Source: Halorubrum rubrum
GTDB lineage: Archaea > Halobacteriota > Halobacteria > Halobacteriales > Haloferacaceae
NCBI RefSeq assembly: GCF_024494685.1
Contig: NZ_JANHDM010000006.1
Span: forward strand, 62,001-126,000
DNA length: 64,000 nt
Direction: 5' to 3'
This document shows, one piece after another, positions 28,910-38,494 of this stretch. The notes beneath the pieces were generated by a model. The model searched no databases, was not told where the DNA came from, and saw only the letters and a list, made by a program, of their open reading frames with translations. A program made the position numbers and the translations under genes. Position 1 is the stretch's first letter, and each line of letters begins with the position of its first letter.

Positions 28910-29827
28910 TCACTCGCCGACTTCGATCGGGACGCCGATCATATTGCCCCACTCGGTCCACGAGCCGTCATAGTTCCGCACGTGCTCGTACCCGAGCAGT
29001 TCTTCGAGAACGAACCAGGTGACCGACGAGCGCTCGCCGATCCGACAGTAGACGATCACGTCGTCGTCTGGATCGATACCGTGCGACTCGTACACCGCTC
29101 CGAGGTCGTCAGGCGGTTTGAACCGACCGTCTGGGCGGAGGTTCTCCGCCCAGAAGACGTTCGTCGCCCCAGGAATATGCCCGCCCCGCACCGCCCCCTC
29201 GTCGATTCCGGGCGGCTTCGTGATGTCTCCGCGGAACTCCTCTGGCAGGCGGACGTCGACGAGCACGGTCCTCGTGTCGAGAGCCTCCTGTACGTCCTCA
29301 CGAGAGGCCCGAGCTTCCGGGTTCGCGGGCGGATCGAGCATTCCGCCGTACTCCACGGTGGGCGGATCGACCGGATCGGTCGTGCTCGGATAGTCATACT
29401 CTACCCAGTACTCACGGCCGCCGTCCATGATTCGGACGTCGGGATGGCCGTAGTAGGTGAGCTGCCAATAAAGGTGCGCTGCGAACCAGTTCCAGTTGTC
29501 GCCGTAGACGACGACGGTCGTTTCCTCGGCGATTCCGTGTGATCCGAGAAACGAGGCCATCTCTTCGGGGGCGAGTATATCGTGAGCGTCTGCCGACCGG
29601 AGATCGGTCTTCCAATCGACGCGACCGGCGCCAGGCACGTGACCGCTCTCATAGAACGCAGTGTTGACGTCGACTTCAAGCAGCCGGAGATCGGGCTCGT
29701 CGGAGGCGAACCGGTCAAGTCGCGCGTCAACCCAGTCGGGACTAACGAGCACGTCCTCCGGATACTGATTACCCGCCGATGCGTCAGTCTTCGTCCGCTC
29801 GTCGTCTGGTGGGTTCTCTGCCGTCAT
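28910..29827 (-). CDS. Thiosulfate/3-mercaptopyruvate sulfurtransferase, two rhodanese domains
   Basis: 305 residues. The N-terminal inactive rhodanese domain (about 25-150) has VVVYGDNWNWFA where the Cys loop would be. The C-terminal active domain (about 170-300) has LVDVRLPEEFRGDI and the Cys loop VIVYCRIGERSS. The six-residue active loop CRIGER indicates a sulfurtransferase moving sulfane sulfur to a thiol acceptor or cyanide. Its start overlaps the stop of the HTH regulator gene by four bases, so regulator and enzyme are one unit. It lies beside SQR, TusA and bd oxidase genes, pointing to sulfide oxidation. Confidence 0.92.
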   Translation of the reverse strand: MTAENPPDDERTKTDASAGNQYPEDVLVSPDWVDARLDRFASDEPDLRLLEVDVNTAFYESGHVPGAGRVDWKTDLRSADAHDILAPEEMASFLGSHGIAEETTVVVYGDNWNWFAAHLYWQLTYYGHPDVRIMDGGREYWVEYDYPSTTDPVDPPTVEYGGMLDPPANPEARASREDVQEALDTRTVLVDVRLPEEFRGDITKPPGIDEGAVRGGHIPGATNVFWAENLRPDGRFKPPDDLGAVYESHGIDPDDDVIVYCRIGERSSVTWFVLEELLGYEHVRNYDGSWTEWGNMIGVPIEVGE

Positions 29828-30543
29828 AGTTGCTGCTCTGTGAATCGTTTCGCCAGCTCTGCGGTCGCTCGTCGGAGCCGATACGACACGGTCGACCGGG
29901 GTAACTCGAGCTCGTCAGCGAGCTCGTCGAGCGTCACTTCCCGCGGCGTCTCGAAGTACCCGCGCTCGACGGCCACGGTCAATGTCTCGCGCTGTTCCGC
30001 ACGGATGTCCGCTCGGGAGAGGAGCCCGCTTTCCCAGTGGTCGACCTCCGTCAGGTGCTCGAACGAGAATGACAACCCCTCGCCGAGCTTCGCGGACAGC
30101 GTGTCGTACAGGTGTCCGATCTTCGAATCGTCCTGTACCAACACGCGCCACCGGACCCTGTCGTCGGTTCGCGTCTGCTCGAAAAGGACACCGCCGTCGA
30201 TGTACGTCGCCGCGATGAGCGGGACGGACTCGCAGTACTCCACATCGGAGACGTACGTGTACGCGACTCTCCGCCGTTGCGATTCGGTCAACAGGCTCGT
30301 CGTTCGGGTCGAATTACACGCTCGGGCGCTGAACGACTGCCGATCGACGGATTCGTCCAAGAGCAGTTCGTCGACGGCCGAAAGATCGGCCGGATCGCCC
30401 GTCACCGACTCGAGCATCCATAGCTCTGTCGGGTCGAGACACGAGTAGATCGCTTCCGACCGGAGGGACTCGCGATCGATGAACAGGTCGACGTACTCGT
30501 CGGCACCGGGGTCGTACGTTATCTCGAAGGTGAAGTCGTACAT
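29824..30543 (-). CDS. HTH-10 (Bat-like) transcriptional regulator of the sulfur island
   Basis: Start chosen at MYDFTFEITYDPG (30543); the frame stays open much further upstream but is low-complexity there. 239 residues. The C-terminal HTH_10 domain of bacterio-opsin-activator type has SRADIRAEQRETLTVAVERGYFETPREVTLDELA followed by LPRSTVSYRLRRATAELAKR, the recognition helix. The N-terminal 170 residues form the BAT-associated sensory domain. Cysteines at about 35, 76 and 104 could sense sulfur or redox state, but that is inference. It overlaps the sulfurtransferase start. Confidence 0.85.
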   Translation of the reverse strand: MYDFTFEITYDPGADEYVDLFIDRESLRSEAIYSCLDPTELWMLESVTGDPADLSAVDELLLDESVDRQSFSARACNSTRTTSLLTESQRRRVAYTYVSDVEYCESVPLIAATYIDGGVLFEQTRTDDRVRWRVLVQDDSKIGHLYDTLSAKLGEGLSFSFEHLTEVDHWESGLLSRADIRAEQRETLTVAVERGYFETPREVTLDELADELELPRSTVSYRLRRATAELAKRFTEQQL

Positions 30544-30718
30544 CTGGCAGTGAACTCGGTTGGTAGGGGTGGCCTCAGTTCGGGGCGTCCGCGGTGTCGG
30601 TGACTGAGCGGGCGCGCTGGGGTGTGCGCCGGCACTCGACAACAGTACATCGGCACTCGGTCCGGTTGGCTCTCGACAACACGTGTGGTATGCGTTCGAC
30701 GTACTTAGCTCGTCTCGT

Positions 30719-36394: not shown

Positions 36395-37570
36395 ATGACA
36401 CTCACACGACCGAACGTCCTCGTCCTCGGTGCCGGCACTGCTGGAACGATGACGGCGAACGCGCTCCGTCGCCGCACCGACGCCGACGTGACGGTGATCG
36501 ATAAGAGCCGGACGCACAGCTACCAGCCCGCGTACTACCTCATCCCCTTCGACTACATGGACCTCGACGAGCACCAGCGCGACACGCGTGACCTGCTTCA
36601 CGACGAGGTCGAGTTCGTCCAGGACGAGGTCGTCGGGGTCGATCCGGACGAGCAGACCGTCTCCGGTGAAACGGACACCTACGAGTACGACGTCCTCGTC
36701 TCCGCCGTGGGGAACAACCGCCGCCCGGACGCGGTCCCAGGGATGCTCGAAGGGTGGAACCGGACGGATTCGGTGTACCCGTTTTACCACGCCTCCGCCG
36801 CACGGGCGTTGGGCGACGCCGTCGACGAGTTCGACGGCGGCCGCTTCCTCGTGACAGTTCCCGACACGCCGATCAAGTGCGGCGGGGCGCCCCTGAAACT
36901 CACGATGCTGATGGAGGAGTATCTCCGCAAGCGTGGCGTTCGCGAGGACGCCGAAGTCGTGATGACGAAGCCAGGGTCCGAGGTGTTCGGAACCGGACCG
37001 AAGGCACCGTATCAAGAGCGGATCGAAGCGATCTGGGACGACCGCGACATCACCTTCGTGCCCGACTTCACCGTCTCCGAGGTCGACTACGAGACCCGGA
37101 CGGTCCGCTCGGTGGAGGGCGACTCGCTCGAGTACGACCTGTACGCGCCAGTTCCGCCGCAGTACGGTCACGAGTTCATTGTCGAGGGCTCCCCGCTGAC
37201 CGACGGCGGCGAGTACGTCTCCGTCGACGACAACACGCTCCAACACGAGACGTATCCGAACGTGTTCGCGCTGGGCGACAACGCCGATGTGCCCACCTCG
37301 CGGACCGCCTCGGCCGCACGCAAACAGTCGCACGTCGTCGTCGATAACGTCGAACGATTCCTCGACGACCGCTCGCTGGCGCCCGACTACAACGGCTACA
37401 CCGCCTGCCCAATTCTCGTCGAAAAGGGGAGCGCGATGATAGCGGAGTTCGACTATGAGGACGCGATCTCCGCACCGGTGGTGAGCCGACTCAACTGGAT
37501 CCTCGACATCAACGTGATCCCACCGCTGTACTGGAACGTCTGGATGCGCGGGTACGACCCGGTTCCCTGA
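36395..37570 (+). CDS. Sulfide:quinone oxidoreductase, type II-like (second copy)
   Basis: 391 residues. FAD site VLVLGAGTAGTMTANAL. The catalytic Cys lies in DTPIKCGGAPLKLTMLMEEYLRK (Cys about 164), a hallmark of type II SQR related to the mitochondrial enzyme. The second Cys is in GYTACPILVEKGSAMIAEFDY (Cys about 339). The FAD/quinone site is VFALGDNADVPTSRTAS. The third Cys of type I enzymes is not evident. It oxidises sulfide to sulfane sulfur, passing electrons to quinone at the membrane. A second DUF1641 gene starts three bases after its stop. Confidence 0.9.
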   Translation: MTLTRPNVLVLGAGTAGTMTANALRRRTDADVTVIDKSRTHSYQPAYYLIPFDYMDLDEHQRDTRDLLHDEVEFVQDEVVGVDPDEQTVSGETDTYEYDVLVSAVGNNRRPDAVPGMLEGWNRTDSVYPFYHASAARALGDAVDEFDGGRFLVTVPDTPIKCGGAPLKLTMLMEEYLRKRGVREDAEVVMTKPGSEVFGTGPKAPYQERIEAIWDDRDITFVPDFTVSEVDYETRTVRSVEGDSLEYDLYAPVPPQYGHEFIVEGSPLTDGGEYVSVDDNTLQHETYPNVFALGDNADVPTSRTASAARKQSHVVVDNVERFLDDRSLAPDYNGYTACPILVEKGSAMIAEFDYEDAISAPVVSRLNWILDINVIPPLYWNVWMRGYDPVP

Positions 37571-37573
37571 GCC

Positions 37574-38494
37574 ATGAGTGAGACACCATCCAACGCGGAC
37601 GCGCTCGCGGCCGATACCGACATGGAGGAGTTGGCCGATCGCGTCGATGCGCAGGCGGACGATCTGATCGCGCTATTGGACCTTCTCACGGTCGTGCGAG
37701 GGCTCAGCGAGGACCTCGTGCCGGAACTCCGGGCGGCTGTGGCGGAGAACCGCGAACCGCTCGCGGGCCTGCGGACCTCCTTGGAGAACGGAGAGACGAT
37801 GCGGCTGGTCGAGCAGGTAGGCGACAACGCCGACGCGCTGGCGGACCTGCTCGATCTGGTCGTCGTCGCTCAGGATCTGTCGGCGGAACTCGTCCCCGAG
37901 TTGCGCACCGTCGCCACCGAGAACCGCGGGGAGATCGCTCGGCTTCGCGTGGCGTTCGAACGCGAGGAGACCCTGGTCCTCCTTCGTCGGATCGGCGACG
38001 ACACCGACATGTTCCTCGACCTGTTGTCGACGCTCGAAGTCGCGAGCGACGCACTCGCGGACGTCGCTCCCGAAGACGAGGCAGCCGCCGAGGCCGCCCG
38101 CGAGGACGTGCGCCGCCTCGCCAGTGCGTTCGACCGCGCCGAATCGGTCGAGGCGCTCGTCGCGCTCGGAGAGAACATGGACACCGTTCGCGGGCTACTC
38201 GCGCTCGTGGAGGGTTTCGGCGACGCGGCCGACCGCAGCACCGAAGAGTACTACCGGCTCGGCACGCAGTTGGGTCAGGCTGCCGACGTTGCCGAGCGCG
38301 CGACCGATCCGCGGGTCGTCGAGACGCTCGACGCCGGCGCGAGCGCGTTCACCGACGAGACGGTCGACCGACGAGTCGGGCTGTTCGGCTTGTTCTCGGC
38401 TCTCCGCGACGACGACGTCCAGCGGACGCTCGGGACGGTCGTCGAGGCAGCCGAGCGCGCCGGTCGGACGCAAACCTCCGGCCAGTCCCGGTGA
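37574..38494 (+). CDS. DUF1641-like protein (second copy)
   Basis: 306 residues, soluble, built of repeated amphipathic helical segments. Similar words recur (DLLDLVVVAQDLSAELVPEL; LLDLLTVVRGLSEDLVPELR), suggesting internal duplication. The C-terminal DUF1641-like block is RVGLFGLFSALRDDDVQRTLG. It is three bases behind the type II SQR and ends the operon. It is longer than the first copy by about one helical repeat unit. Function unknown; partnership with SQR is inferred from the repeated gene order. Confidence 0.75.
   Translation: MSETPSNADALAADTDMEELADRVDAQADDLIALLDLLTVVRGLSEDLVPELRAAVAENREPLAGLRTSLENGETMRLVEQVGDNADALADLLDLVVVAQDLSAELVPELRTVATENRGEIARLRVAFEREETLVLLRRIGDDTDMFLDLLSTLEVASDALADVAPEDEAAAEAAREDVRRLASAFDRAESVEALVALGENMDTVRGLLALVEGFGDAADRSTEEYYRLGTQLGQAADVAERATDPRVVETLDAGASAFTDETVDRRVGLFGLFSALRDDDVQRTLGTVVEAAERAGRTQTSGQSR

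Follow-up and report, generated by a model that had tools for sequence, protein, structure and literature searches.

Sulfide:quinone oxidoreductase (SQR) is reported not to be typical of haloarchaea (PMC9765009). In a cst-type operon, an SQR is joined within one operon by a sulfurtransferase, a persulfide dioxygenase and a dedicated persulfide-sensing repressor. Cytochrome bd oxidase supports sulfide-resistant respiration in E. coli (PMC4815019), and two otherwise soluble dehydrogenases, ForC1 of Bacillus and the hydrogenase Huc, work with a DUF1641-type subunit (PMC8808070; PMC10017518). Here we describe an island in a 64,000-nucleotide stretch of Halorubrum rubrum DNA (the window; contig 22 of the 3.2-Mb haloarchaeal genome G000) that contains relatives of most of these components side by side: two SQR-like flavoproteins, each paired with a DUF1641 protein, together with a TusA sulfur carrier, a rhodanese, a cytochrome bd oxidase and a helix-turn-helix (HTH) regulator. 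On sequence evidence we consider it probable, at roughly 0.7, that the island was acquired horizontally and is a respiratory module for sulfide removal, which probably also yields some energy at low oxygen.

Pfam and NCBIfam scans of the window's proteins recovered, in place, every gene that a first-pass annotation of this DNA had named: an HTH regulator, a two-domain rhodanese, cydAB with a small partner, TusA and two SQR/DUF1641 pairs within 10 kb (Table 1). That list was incomplete, having overlooked a 59-aa membrane open reading frame (ORF), and the ORFs taken for hth, cydB and cydA were too long; in all three the longest ORF extends past the likely gene, and shorter starts agree with coding scores and Pfam matches. 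The minus strand carries, in order, rhodanese, hth, an 81-aa membrane ORF, cydB and cydA, and the plus strand carries the 59-aa membrane ORF, tusA, SQR1, DUF1641a, SQR2 and DUF1641b. Adjacent genes overlap or almost abut, which fits three operons: hth-rhodanese, cydA-cydB-81 aa, and tusA to DUF1641b. The first-pass annotation had joined these genes into one sulfide-oxidation and detoxification module as a bare inference. Their link is now a tested association, resting on conserved neighbourhood, invariant SQR cysteines and a common inverted repeat ahead of every transcription unit, while the function of the module is what we infer from these features.

Our search for SQR1, SQR2, DUF1641 and cydA covered 194 genomes of the class. 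A neighbourhood comparison across haloarchaea had been suggested as a check on the earlier proposal, with absence of co-occurrence elsewhere as the outcome that would count against it; co-occurrence outside this genome was found. All 19 genomes with SQR2 contain cydA, versus 88 of 175 without SQR2 (Fisher P 8e-6, kinship ignored). In 12 of these 19 genomes SQR2 and cydA are no more than 15 kb apart, and the same holds for SQR1 in 17 of the 64 genomes having both, where about 1% per copy is expected. These comparisons take no account of kinship, which a CydA tree of 84 sequences addresses in part: it requires 16 changes of the linked state, no fewer than 15 of them forced by well-supported branches; the linked set was hand-chosen and the unlinked set sampled, making this count a guide only. 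SQR-cydA linkage thus appears to have been gained or lost many times and is not one inherited accident; a single ancestral linkage is not supported by the tree. The gene set occurs far beyond chance, with the same families as neighbours in many other genomes. SQR-DUF1641 pairs occur in more than half of the sampled haloarchaeal genomes, despite the view of SQR as atypical there (PMC9765009).

SQR1 and SQR2 each contain exactly two cysteines, and these are invariant: C162 and C333 among 21 relatives of SQR1, C162 and C338 among 18 relatives of SQR2. The nearest solved relative of both is human SQR (SQR1 versus 6oi5, 6.6e-39; SQR2 versus 6mp5, 1e-52), whose redox cysteines align with both cysteines of each protein. 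The NCBIfam SQR type III model NF049943 (seleno subtype) also matches both strongly, at 1.5e-99 for SQR1, though below its cut-off. These features suggest that SQR1 and SQR2 oxidise sulfide and reduce quinone. Alternatively, the substrates of the flavoproteins might be other sulfur species (organic persulfides, for instance, or sulfane sulfur derived from thiosulfate), or the enzymes might work backwards as polysulfide reductases, with the island serving sulfur reduction or biosynthetic trafficking. Type III SQR relatives are little characterised, the NCBIfam cut-off is missed, and TusA and rhodaneses also have biosynthetic roles. We regard this alternative as highly improbable, given that human SQR, with which both redox cysteines align, is the closest match among solved proteins, and that the neighbours fit oxidation: an oxygen-consuming oxidase here and, in relatives, a sulfite exporter and a persulfide dioxygenase-like protein that uses oxygen. 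Elsewhere in the same genome (contig 18, locus L080) lies a second TusA-SQR1-DUF1641 set, with a dioxygenase-like gene, a YeeE/YedE pair and DsrE.

A DUF1641 protein is encoded directly behind SQR in 115 of 124 SQR copies in the haloarchaeal genomes searched. Sixteen DUF1641 genes stand without an SQR, and 14 of these were fetched for neighbourhood reading; 11 sit behind a formate-dehydrogenase-like gene of about 755 aa (L198-L201, L203-L208, L210). Two of the latter genes were scanned, both exceeding the curated score for formate dehydrogenase alpha, and the remainder share the same starting sequence. This order is the ForC-ForE arrangement of Bacillus. At locus L081 (G091 contig 1), DUF1641 is retained and the SQR1 gene ahead of it has apparently been lost. 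A profile of SQR1-linked DUF1641 proteins, compared with all solved structures, matched ForE1 (E 1e-4 to 7e-5) and then HucM (E 3e-4 to 8e-4), both with modest E-values; a DUF1641b profile found no match among them, and the DUF1641b alignment shows internal repeats whose number varies. DUF1641 therefore has a precedent, in ForE and HucM, that the first-pass annotation did not know.

In Bacillus ForCE, ForE1 is needed for formate:menadione activity: ForC1 minus ForE1 has lost this activity and nearly all of its bound MK-7 (menaquinone-7), and its viologen activity is also 50-fold lower (PMC8808070). HucM forms a hydrophobic tube from Huc to the membrane, is a proposed menaquinone carrier, and is required for formation of the Huc oligomer (PMC10017518). 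By analogy, DUF1641 most likely couples SQR to membrane quinone, which would involve contact between the two proteins. A role as scaffold, membrane anchor or assembly factor could also explain the dependence of the Huc oligomer on HucM and the fall in viologen activity upon ForE1 loss. We nonetheless hold such a role to be unlikely, as the loss of menadione activity and of almost all bound MK-7 points to quinone, and quinone reduction is nearly the sole trait that SQR has in common with the two known DUF1641 partners. Extending the quinone-coupling reading, we propose tentatively, at a little less than even odds, that DUF1641 is a general class of quinone-delivery subunit on otherwise soluble haloarchaeal dehydrogenases (SQR and ForC-type formate dehydrogenase), so that SQR here would be an undescribed two-part enzyme type, and that an unstudied haloarchaeal regulator with a defined operator controls a respiratory module leading from sulfide to bd oxidase. 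We found no paper connecting DUF1641 to SQR in the open-access literature searched; the relation to ForE and HucM makes its function directly testable.

Two further proteins carry one cysteine each. The rhodanese has only Cys261, in a CRIGERS loop, and its active loop aligns with that of its best solved relative, the rhodanese 1uar (E 9e-85); members of the same family (37-54% identity) precede SQR2 in most relatives. TusA has only Cys19, in a CPGP motif that provides the CPxP sulfur-carrier cysteine. Orthologues of the regulator are found at 57-90% identity in ten loci. The regulator arm of the first-pass annotation needs redrawing, since the regulator keeps company with the rhodanese and not solely with the oxidase. 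A thiol sensor special to SQR-linked regulators was considered and rejected, as family members without the SQR link conserve C76 and C104 just as well. Among the ten loci whose regulator is at least 55% identical, all have the HTH_10 regulator and eight have a small HTH_20 protein; the latter lacks a close counterpart in this genome (40% at best). The HTH_20 gene (L133 5369-5734, L082 15049-15414, L139 6704-7060, L256 and L257) is absent from the window and is itself preceded by the inverted repeat.

A perfect inverted repeat ahead of tusA, GTTGTCGTGCGACAAC, became apparent when the window was compared with Halorubrum kocurii. The 3.2-Mb genome has no other exact match to it, and in five loci it is conserved before the SQR arm, within otherwise diverged DNA; weaker copies precede hth, cydA and the 59-aa ORF. 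The derived motif TTGKC-N4-GMCAA has four matches in the window versus 0.05 expected by shuffling, each ahead of a different island unit, and across the ten loci it occurs in 21 of 41 relevant intergenic regions versus 5 of 199 elsewhere; having been refined on part of these loci after the sites were seen, it yields chance figures that are biased upward. What stands firm in the operator evidence is the exact match together with its conserved position. A genome-wide motif was also considered and discarded: two-mismatch matches in this genome are at chance level (28 versus 26 in a reversed control), and exact matches in the 194 genomes are not enriched (9 versus about 22 in the reversed control), so that weight is carried by position and conservation only. 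The HTH_10/HVO_2928_N regulator, or the small HTH_20 protein of relatives, is a candidate binder of the repeat. Locus L141 (Halogeometricum pallidum) has six matches to the motif, some before PRF, SQR2 and rhodanese genes, and lacks a close regulator copy.

The cydA gene in the window is the only one in the genome, and it overlaps the adjoining cydB. Aligned with E. coli CydA (6rko and 7ose chains), its product retains the haem ligands, the Glu pair, the Q-loop Lys/Glu and GRQPW; which of these residues are required for function is established knowledge. The 81-aa protein has no Pfam match and has homologues directly 3' of cydB in 8 fetched loci. The 59-aa ORF, likewise without a Pfam match, has 85% and 69% identical copies adjoining cydA in two relatives (L082, L132), and weak relatives of it are seen among 66-aa ORFs near cydAB in other loci. 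A short cydA remnant with a stop codon is present in the sister species G009 (contig 3, 45027-45284). The oxidase arm might simply respond to low oxygen and have no connection with the SQR arm next to it, with a regulator that senses oxygen or redox state and not sulfide. Low-oxygen use of bd oxidases is widespread, the genome has three haem-copper-family matches, so that bd may be its low-oxygen oxidase, and the regulator's C76 and C104 are family-wide; cydABX-hth-rhodanese units with the repeat also occur in G103 and G111 with no SQR2 beside them. We judge this explanation improbable, because even in G103 and G111 the rhodanese is still in the regulator operon, the best inverted repeat precedes the SQR operon, SQR-cydA linkage recurs on several CydA branches, and H. 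kocurii keeps the regulator, rhodanese and SQR arm without cydABX.

Near relatives of the island (80-90% identity) show recombined units, four relatives presenting four combinations: H. kocurii has the window's arrangement minus cydABX, Haloarchaeobius iranensis carries every unit except SQR1-DUF1641a, all on the same strand, and G013 lacks tusA-SQR1-DUF1641a. The complete set, which the first-pass annotation did not know as a described haloarchaeal system, is not unique to this genome, and fuller versions with persulfide dioxygenase and TauE exist in other haloarchaea. In this wider locus, rhodanese-SQR2-DUF1641b-peroxiredoxin-cydAB is divergent from, or near, a rhodanese-metallo-beta-lactamase fusion (persulfide dioxygenase-like), a 48-aa ORF and a TauE sulfite exporter; it was found in Halorussus, Natronomonas, Halorientalis, Halolamina, Natrinema, Haloterrigena, Halomicrococcus, Natronorubrum thiooxidans and others. 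Elsewhere TusA-SQR1-DUF1641a is accompanied by YeeE/YedE, DsrE, TauE and dioxygenase-like genes, all of them sulfur genes. Among the 21 same-genus genomes listed with a match, SQR2 is present in G000 and G013 only. G+C content and third-position G+C (GC3) are lower in the island than in its flanks (65% versus 68-71%), which fits acquisition. The left flank is syntenic with the sister species G009 and G202; in an empty-site comparison with these two, the right flank was not found beside the left.

In the mechanism we propose, sulfide entering the cell would be oxidised to sulfane sulfur by SQR1 and SQR2, which would reduce membrane quinone. DUF1641a and DUF1641b would let each cytoplasmic SQR reach that quinone, as ForE does for ForC and HucM for Huc. 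Sulfane sulfur would pass to TusA and the rhodanese, and persulfide would perhaps be finished by dioxygenase-like proteins encoded elsewhere in the genome. Cytochrome bd would oxidise the quinol and hand electrons to oxygen at times when the genome's other oxidases could be poisoned. The HTH_10/HVO_2928_N regulator, or the second small HTH protein of relatives, may control all units via TTGKC-N4-GMCAA in response to a putative inducer. Growth on sulfide seems a less likely main purpose than detoxification, given the likeness of the set to the cst and bigR operons and its patchy occurrence among close relatives.

Several observations weigh against this reading, besides the bias in the motif figures. 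The window holds no persulfide dioxygenase, and this genome's copies are on other contigs. The two SQRs score 333.6 and 308.6 bits with NF049943, below its cut-off of 525, which was set for the selenoprotein subtype. The match between DUF1641 and HucM is weak, and AlphaFold models of both DUF1641 proteins are low-confidence (mean pLDDT 57 and 46). SQR1 occurs without a linked cydA in many haloarchaea, and the units of G103 and G111 mean that the oxidase half also exists independently. At the level of sequence, gene identity, catalytic residues, conserved neighbourhood and the repeat before each unit are nevertheless established, and the island is a small testable unit joining sulfide oxidation to a sulfide-resistant oxidase, with a defined candidate operator.

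Table 1. Genes and candidate operators of the island, in window coordinates.
Feature	Position	Strand	Evidence or remark
Two-domain rhodanese (thiosulfate sulfurtransferase-like)	28910..29827	-	Pfam Rhodanese x2
Regulator, HVO_2928_N + HTH_10	29824..30543	-	Pfam PF24281 5.9e-61, PF04967; 4-base overlap with rhodanese
Candidate operator upstream of hth-rhodanese, GTTGGCTCTCGACAAC	30665..30680		Weaker inverted-repeat copy
81-aa protein downstream of cydB, two predicted membrane helices, candidate small subunit	31071..31316	-	Hydropathy
cydB, cytochrome bd subunit II	31318..32325	-	Pfam PF02322 3.9e-71; NCBIfam TIGR00203 above cut-off
cydA, cytochrome bd subunit I	32318..33742	-	Pfam PF01654 2.2e-143
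Candidate operator upstream of cydA, GTTGGCACAGGACAAG	33843..33858		Weaker copy; identical in G103 and G111
Candidate operator upstream of 59-aa ORF, ATTGTCTTCTGCCAAC	33986..34001		Weaker inverted-repeat copy
59-aa membrane ORF	34038..34217	+	Conserved beside cydA in L082 and L132
Candidate operator of tusA-SQR operon	34263..34278		Perfect inverted repeat GTTGTCG-TG-CGACAAC
TusA sulfur carrier, CPGP motif	34328..34573; in-frame ATG also at 34301	+	Pfam PF01206 2e-14
SQR1, sulfide:quinone oxidoreductase-like flavoprotein	34566..35711	+	NCBIfam, human SQR match
DUF1641a, proposed quinone-coupling subunit of SQR1	35711..36376	+	Pfam PF07849 1.5e-15
SQR2, sulfide:quinone oxidoreductase-like flavoprotein	36395..37570	+	Human SQR match
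DUF1641b, longer repeat-rich member	37574..38494	+	Pfam PF07849 2.8e-8

Two other genes of the window were noted in passing. A ThiS/MoaD-like protein with a C-terminal extension is encoded at 27424-28068 (minus strand), and its match is broken into two pieces in many same-genus genomes, some with a stop. A gene for Volactin, an archaeal actin relative, lies at 45703-46761 (minus strand).

Set beside E. coli cytochrome bd (CydABX, CydH), the island's CydA and CydB share the conserved haem and quinol residues, whereas its small proteins, at 81 aa and 59 aa, match no family and are not CydX or CydH by sequence. The ForCE formate:menaquinone oxidoreductase of Bacillus subtilis (PMC8808070) and Huc with HucM (PMC10017518) likewise place a DUF1641-type subunit after a soluble dehydrogenase; unlike in these enzymes, the catalytic partner here is a flavoprotein SQR, in a pairing known from gene adjacency. 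Human mitochondrial sulfide oxidation (SQR, persulfide dioxygenase and rhodanese) provides the nearest solved SQR relatives, and the same enzyme set is present genome-wide, but the island's electrons are proposed to reach cytochrome bd, with DUF1641 in between. A close likeness is to the cst operon of Staphylococcus aureus (CstR, TauE, CstA, CstB and SQR; PMC5480029) and to bigR/Blh operons (PMC5823870), which similarly combine SQR and sulfurtransferases with a dedicated regulator; the fuller haloarchaeal loci add to it the rhodanese-persulfide dioxygenase fusion and TauE. Unlike these operons, the window has no dioxygenase or TauE on site and has DUF1641, a free TusA and cytochrome bd in addition, and the island's regulator is of the HTH_10/HVO_2928_N type and not of the CsoR or ArsR type, with an HTH_20 protein in relatives. 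The window does not bring together in one operon the four components that define a cst-type operon. Although the island is not classed as a cst operon, it would work like one.

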